From Chloroflexota bacterium (lineage in GTDB: Bacteria; Chloroflexota; UBA11872), in the NCBI GenBank assembly GCA_026708035.1, contig JAPOVQ010000030.1, forward strand, positions 62,001 through 126,000: DNA of 64,000 nt, read 5' to 3'. Positions 42,804 through 43,835 of the stretch are shown piece after piece. A program made the position numbers and the translations under genes. The notes beneath the pieces are model-generated. The model was not told the origin of the DNA. It saw only the letters and a program-made list of their open reading frames with translations, and did not search any database. Each line of letters starts with the position of its first letter. Position 1 is the stretch's first letter.

Positions 42804-43835
42804 ATGGGGCGTCGCCTAGGAATCGCAGGATCGCTTGCGTTCGGAGTGGCCCTCGTTGTCCTGGGCGCCCTCGCGCTGGTGTGGGCGATACGAAGCTCGA
42901 CGGAAGCACCCCAGATCGCGCGGCCGCCCGCCGACCTGCCCGATCCGCACGAGCGCATGATGTTCGACTCGGCCTACGACCAGCGCCTCAGCCGCGACGC
43001 CATCCCACCCATTTACATGCCGCAATTCGTGGCCGCCGCCGAGGCGCCGCTCCAGCCGGACGAGCTGGTCATTGGGCTGGTCATCGACGGCGAGGCGCGG
43101 GCTTATCCCGTCGCGACGCTCAACCGGCGCGAGATGGTCAACGACGTCGTCGGCGGCACGCCGGTGCTCGTCACCTGGTGACCGCTCTGCTACACCGGTC
43201 TCGTGCACGACCGGCAGTTCGAGGGCCAGACCCTGGTCTTCGGCAATCAGGGCGCGCTGTATAAGACGGCCATGACGTGGTTCGACCACGCCACGGGCAG
43301 CATCTGGAGCCAACCGATCGGCCGAGCCCTGGTCGGCGAGTTGCGGGGCGCGGCGCTCGACCAGATTCCGTCGACCCTGGATACCTGGGAGGGGTTCCGC
43401 ACCCGGCACCCCGACGCCCTGGTGCTGAGCAACGGGCTCGACGGACCGCGGCTCATTCTTGCGACGCCGCGGGAGAACTGGGTGATCGGCCTGGCCTTGG
43501 GGGACGCCGCCGCAGCCGTCGACTTCGGCCACGCGCGGGCCGCCGGCCTGGTGCAGCTGACGGTGGGCGATGAGCCGGTGTTGGTCTGGGTCGACGCGAC
43601 CACCGGCACCGTGCGCGCTTATCTGCGGCGAGTGGCGAATCGCCTGCTGGAGTTCGAGCCGGCGGGCAATGGCGGCTTGCGGGACCGCGAGACGAGCACT
43701 CTATGGAGCGCGGCGAACGGCCTGGCGCTCAGCGGTCCGCTTGCAGGCCAAGCCCTGAGCCCGGTGCCGTGGACATCGTCGTTCGACTGGGCCTGGCGCG
43801 ACTTTTACCCGAACTCCACGTTCATCGGGGCCTGA
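42804..43835 (+). CDS. DUF3179 protein with in-frame TGA: candidate selenoprotein (or nonsense-interrupted gene)
   Basis: This 343-codon frame is interrupted once by TGA at codon 126. Both halves are in the same frame and belong to one DUF3179 protein. Residues 8-29 form a membrane anchor or signal; MVNDVVGGTPVLVTW precedes the TGA, and PLCYTGLVHDRQFEGQTLVFG then follows with the family's SIWSQPIG, TLDTWEGFRTRHPDALVLS and C-terminal DWAWRDFYP. In DUF3179 proteins this point normally reads CPLC, so the TGA sits exactly on the first Cys and gives a U-P-L-C redox-type motif if read as selenocysteine. TGA is a normal stop elsewhere in the window. A hairpin follows 13 nt downstream. It lies 55 bp after the Lon-like gene. 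Reaction unknown; a thiol/selenol redox role is inferred. Confidence 0.72.
43179..43181 (+). other. In-frame TGA, candidate selenocysteine codon (residue 126)
   Basis: TGG-TGA-CCG-CTC-TGC: the TGA replaces the Cys codon (TGC or TGT) of the DUF3179 CPLC motif, a one-base difference from TGC, and the partner Cys at residue 129 is retained. Confidence 0.6.
43195..43214 (+). promoter_or_regulatory. Possible bacterial SECIS-like hairpin
   Basis: CCGGTC (43195-43200) can pair with GACCGG (43209-43214) around an 8-nt loop. Alternatively CCGG/CCGG carries a two-base TC bulge below a TCG/CGA upper stem and a TGCA loop, reminiscent of the bulged U and G-containing loop of the E. coli fdhF element. The stem starts 13 nt after the TGA, within the range where bacterial SECIS elements lie. 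This is hand folding only. Confidence 0.4.

Follow-up and report, generated by a model that had tools for sequence, protein, structure and literature searches.

The window analyzed here is a 64,000-nucleotide stretch of DNA from a Chloroflexota bacterium. It contains a gene of the DUF3179 family whose reading frame is interrupted by a single in-frame TGA, which raises the question of whether this codon terminates translation or is decoded as selenocysteine (Sec). A sequence-only reading had proposed the latter, since the TGA splits an otherwise open frame with DUF3179-like sequence on either side, and falls on the first Cys of the CPLC motif with the partner Cys kept (U-x-x-C). These observations hold, with the coordinates, frame and codon exactly as claimed (Table 1). 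The frame starts with an ATG and has no other internal interruption. With the TGA read through, the product matches DUF3179 (PF11376) with 221 bits, well above the Pfam gathering cut-off of 27 bits, and the two halves match the same profile on their own, with 68 and 130 bits (E 1.2e-18 and 2e-37). The TGA occupies the first Cys position of W-C-P-L-C, and the second Cys is intact. The AlphaFold2 model of the protein (pLDDT 87) consists of an N-terminal helix followed by a beta-rich domain. The helix is probably a membrane anchor, and therefore the DUF3179 domain is probably located outside the cytoplasm. Judging from the comparisons described below, the apparent stop codon is almost certainly read as selenocysteine, and we assign a probability of about 96% to the reading in which the gene encodes a membrane-anchored DUF3179 selenoprotein with the motif Sec126-Pro-Leu-Cys129, produced by SECIS-directed Sec insertion.

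Table 1. Positions of the DUF3179 gene and its features in the window.
Feature	Positions	Strand	Remarks
DUF3179 selenoprotein gene (predicted)	42804..43835	+	343 residues, UGA read as selenocysteine
Predicted N-terminal membrane helix, residues 8-31	42825..42896	+	AlphaFold2 model, low confidence there; putative topology
In-frame TGA, predicted Sec codon, residue 126	43179..43181	+	First position of U-P-L-C; same codon in all Sec homologues
Partner Cys129 of U-x-x-C, codon TGC	43188..43190	+	Invariant in 44-sequence alignment
SECIS hairpin (predicted)	43195..43214	+	CCGGTC-TCGTGCAC-GACCGG, -9.5 kcal/mol, starts 13 nt after TGA
Terminal stop TGA	43833..43835	+	In the genus, TGA in 3 species, TAG in 3

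The argument for a real selenoprotein is that the same codon, together with the hairpin, is kept in more than 50 related species. Within the order of the source genome, 24 genomes were examined, including six species of the genus. In 6/6 of these species the orthologue has a single internal TGA, and the proteins of the five others are 85–91% identical to that of the window. The TGA form is also found in three of the 24 genomes that belong to another family of the order, and among 400 genomes of the phylum a further search picked up G386, again from another family; the four further genomes of the phylum with TGA on the first Cys of CPLC are G020, G021, G022 and G386. In a wider survey, a DNA pattern for W-UGA-P-x-C-Y-[TS]-G-L-V, with synonymous third positions left free, was scanned against about 85,000 species genomes. 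It returned 51 stretches, every one of which (51/51) is a DUF3179 gene with TGA at the same codon. Nearly all derive from Chloroflexota (SAR202/Dehalococcoidia, Anaerolineae, Caldilineae), with one record labelled Armatimonadetes and one Proteobacteria. Homologues with this TGA are thus found in more than 50 species, at 35–91% protein identity. Such a distribution makes a single-base assembly or sequencing error vanishingly improbable, as the TGA appears, judged from the assemblies, in dozens of separately assembled genomes, including the chromosome-level records CP070785, CP046147 and OX638325. The second of these is the complete chromosome of a named strain, Candidatus Lucifugimonas marina JH1073.

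Several copies of the gene depart from the common form. The JH1073 copy has an extra in-frame TGA (L129:3724-3726) eight codons before the Sec codon, at a position occupied by Gly in relatives, and its remaining frame and SECIS are intact; it may be a pseudogene or carry a second recoded codon. Frameshifted copies occur in relatives of Lucifugimonas (L150 of G445, L082 and L151 of G402), which suggests repeated loss of the DUF3179 gene in this genus. In G022, a second, distant DUF3179 paralogue has a TGA at the same motif position (TY-U-VVC; L079:1000-1002), accompanied by a different SECIS-like hairpin with 7 bp and the loop AGUU, possibly a sign that Sec arose independently here.

The main rival named in the sequence-only reading was a recent nonsense mutation, in which case the TGA would be a true stop and the gene a pseudogene. 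A single base change is enough to convert TGC or TGT into TGA, and a young pseudogene would likewise show a shortened frame followed by an undamaged tail. This rival is refuted by the deep conservation of both the TGA and the downstream frame, and is now extremely improbable. Comparison of the six species of the genus gives a dN/dS of 0.14–0.28 downstream of the TGA and 0.15–0.32 upstream, and the codons of the hairpin are frozen. The downstream half is under purifying selection, with dN/dS equally low on either side of the codon, so the decay of this half that had been named as counter-evidence is not the case. The terminal stop of the gene switches between TGA and TAG (three species each), whereas the internal TGA is invariant across the genus. 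The same observation bears on an altered code, in which TGA would stand for an ordinary amino acid everywhere, or on general suppression of TGA. Either would also leave the frame open, but both are refuted by the use of a terminal TGA at the end of the very same gene, in accordance with the earlier statement that TGA is a normal stop in this DNA. The presence of tRNA-Sec, SelA, SelB and SelD, and the restriction of the hairpin to TGA forms, also stand against an altered code, which is no more probable than a nonsense mutation. Taken together, low dN/dS on both sides and an invariant internal TGA next to a varying terminal stop exclude nonsense mutation, altered code and assembly error in practice.

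Decoding of UGA as Sec depends on a dedicated machinery, all parts of which were found in the source genome: selA (contig C14, 493 bits), selB (C17, 318 bits, with both parts), selD (C15, 377 bits) and tRNA-Sec (C17, 71 bits, anticodon TCA, in agreement with ARAGORN). The sequence-only reading had named the absence of this machinery, and of homologues with TGA at the codon, as counter-evidence, and neither is the case. The selD gene (G000:C15:47642-48568) is itself a selenoprotein gene with TGA at the catalytic Cys position (GAG-U-ACK), which provides an independent positive control for the reading of UGA as Sec in this genome. A selD with one internal TGA is present in 6/6 species of the genus, its catalytic placement having been read in the source genome. 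A tRNA-Sec was detected in 21 of the order's 24 genomes, and among 42 other genomes carrying the TGA form it was detected in 39. It was not detected in the remaining three of these 42, nor in the metagenome-assembled genome G022, probably as a result of incompleteness.

The candidate SECIS hairpin, placed by the sequence-only reading 13 nt downstream of the TGA, is present as claimed. It is formed by a 6-bp stem (CCGGUC/GACCGG), a further pair U43201-A43207 and a bulged nucleotide at 43208, which enclose the apical loop CGUGC (43202-43206), 20 nt after the UGA. The published rules for bacterial SECIS elements (PMC13188914) ask for a loop of 3–9 nt, a stem of 4–16 bp, a G in the first two loop positions, a distance of 16–37 nt after the UGA and a minimum free energy (MFE) of at most -7.5. 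The hairpin conforms to them with the loop CGUGC, 7 bp with one bulge, a spacing of 20 and -9.5 kcal/mol. Taken alone it is weak evidence, because the same rules are passed by 5% of synonymously recoded versions and, within the same genes, by 23% of codon positions picked at random. The stability of the hairpin alone was rejected as evidence, as many random positions in this G+C-rich DNA pass and shuffled versions of the 50-nt stretch fold about as well (z -0.8).

What is, on this comparative evidence, far beyond chance is the combination of the TGA with a near-identical predicted 20-nt hairpin in more than 50 species. The codons were compared across 40 non-redundant TGA forms with a mean protein identity of 50%. 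Those at U+5 to U+11 are nearly frozen (ACC GGT CTC GTG CAY GAC CGG), and where the amino acid is invariant, mean codon identity is 0.77 over the first 13 codons behind the UGA vs 0.36 elsewhere (Mann-Whitney p = 2e-5). Most hairpin codons reach 0.86–0.95; the only one that varies freely is CAC/CAT, whose varying base is unpaired in the preferred structure. This structure, CCGGUC-U[CGUGC]A-Y-GACCGG, is satisfied by 99.4% of cells. A second way of folding, with the loop UGCA and a bulged UC, was considered and rejected as slightly worse (98.6% vs 99.4% of cells); it is broken by four TCTGGTTCAT sequences. Among the TGA-form hairpins compared, no pair has changed on both sides and there are no compensatory base changes; covariation is uninformative here because the hairpin is nearly invariant. 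A SECIS covariance model scores the hairpin of the window at 67 bits and none of the Cys orthologues above 18.4; across the source genome it yields no convincing site besides the DUF3179 gene. The selD hairpin of the source genome has the loop CGUGA, closely similar to CGUGC in the DUF3179 gene, a likeness that recognition by one and the same SelB would favour.

In the sister genus, the orthologues carry TGC or TGT at the position of the Sec codon. They are full-length, 45–48% identical and carry C-P-L-C, but lack the SECIS hairpin, and their codons vary freely in that stretch. The presence of TGA in one group and TGC or TGT in the other at a single codon is, by this alignment, the Sec/Cys exchange that defines selenoprotein families. 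In the tree, 40 Sec forms and nine Cys orthologues group together, and the longer Cys paralogues fall outside this group. The genus with Cys is placed in an unresolved fork, and thus may have lost Sec or never had it. The tRNA-Sec was detected in all members of this genus but one; therefore the loss of Sec, if any, did not follow the loss of the machinery.

In the proposed mechanism, SelA would make Sec-tRNA-Sec from Ser-tRNA-Sec with selenophosphate supplied by SelD, and SelB bound to the hairpin would deliver it to the UGA at 43179, giving the 343-residue protein with Sec126-Pro-Leu-Cys129. In this protein, Sec126 may act as the attacking residue and Cys129 as the resolving one of a thiol/selenol redox reaction. 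The actual insertion of Sec, the extracytoplasmic location and this redox role are what we infer beyond the comparison itself. UGA/Sec decoding is known to be inefficient, and a selenium-dependent switch can be envisaged, in which translation mostly terminates to give a 125-residue product and Sec is inserted only under ample selenium; a second ORF start, GTG at 43203, could be seen in the same light. However, the 125-residue piece would lack Cys129 and the greater part of the conserved fold, and nothing conserved points to a separate role for it, which leaves the switch very unlikely.

DUF3179 is listed as a prokaryotic selenoprotein family with UxxC/T in reviews from 2022 and 2026 (PMC9312934, PMC13188914), so the novelty as a selenoprotein suggested by the sequence-only reading does not stand. 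The passages of these reviews on the family credit it to Zhang and Gladyshev 2007 and the Olavius algarvensis delta1 symbiont. As far as the description in the reviews goes, the catalogued proteins belong to the same Pfam family (PF11376) and have Sec first in U-x-x-C, but come from a deltaproteobacterial symbiont and not from Chloroflexota. Catalogued DUF3179 selenoproteins include MBW1804167.1 and MDJ0986319.1. Since the family is already listed, the gene represents a phylum-wide branch of a known kind rather than a new selenoprotein family. In the literature on Chloroflexota or SAR202 selenoproteins, nothing was found on the DUF3179 gene. Standard annotation breaks genes at UGA, and the protein is therefore likely to be truncated or missed in many Chloroflexota genomes.

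The motif and the neighbours in other species indicate that the role of the protein is most likely thiol/selenol redox chemistry outside the cytoplasm. A lipobox-like start (LTAC) is seen in one relative (L091). Just upstream of the DUF3179 gene, four loci have a TlpA/AhpC-like gene of the thioredoxin fold. In six loci (L102, L104, L105, L113, L119, L120), a redoxin/deiodinase-like gene, itself interrupted by an in-frame TGA (EFGSFT-U-PYCGM), lies on the same strand, approximately 860–1000 nt downstream of the DUF3179 UGA. This gene also has a SECIS-like hairpin, and the six loci hold two adjoining selenoprotein genes in Chloroflexota of the Anaerolineae type. In the window itself, the upstream neighbour encodes a Lon-like AAA protease and the other, on the opposite strand, a GNAT acetyltransferase; neither gives a functional hint.

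Searches with the protein gave no match in NCBIfam, and no solved relative by sequence in the PDB. Foldseek ranks Rieske ferredoxins first among the matches to the model (E 6.5e-3), but they superpose poorly (rmsd 5.5), and the profile comparison with Rieske by hhalign has a probability of 3% and aligns the other half. The C-P-x-C-Y-T-G of DUF3179 resembles the C-P-H-x-G loop of the Rieske [2Fe-2S] ferredoxins, but the cluster ligands C-x-H and C-x-x-H are missing; the DUF3179 alignment has no matching His pair, and only Cys126 and Cys129 are invariant. It is a doubtful proposal that the protein is a phylum-wide extracytoplasmic selenoenzyme of Chloroflexota with a Rieske-like fold, in which the Fe-S cluster was lost, Sec-x-x-Cys replaced the cluster loop, and TlpA-like and deiodinase-like proteins act as redox partners. 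In a viral fold library, the model has one match, an uncharacterised giant-virus protein of Indivirus (ILV1), A0A1V0SD44 (E 6.6e-8).

With more than 50 Sec forms, their Cys counterparts, and a single SECIS whose synonymous sites hardly vary throughout the phylum, the set offers clean natural data on the constraint acting on a SECIS element. The finding also points to extracytoplasmic use of selenium in marine and other environmental Chloroflexota.
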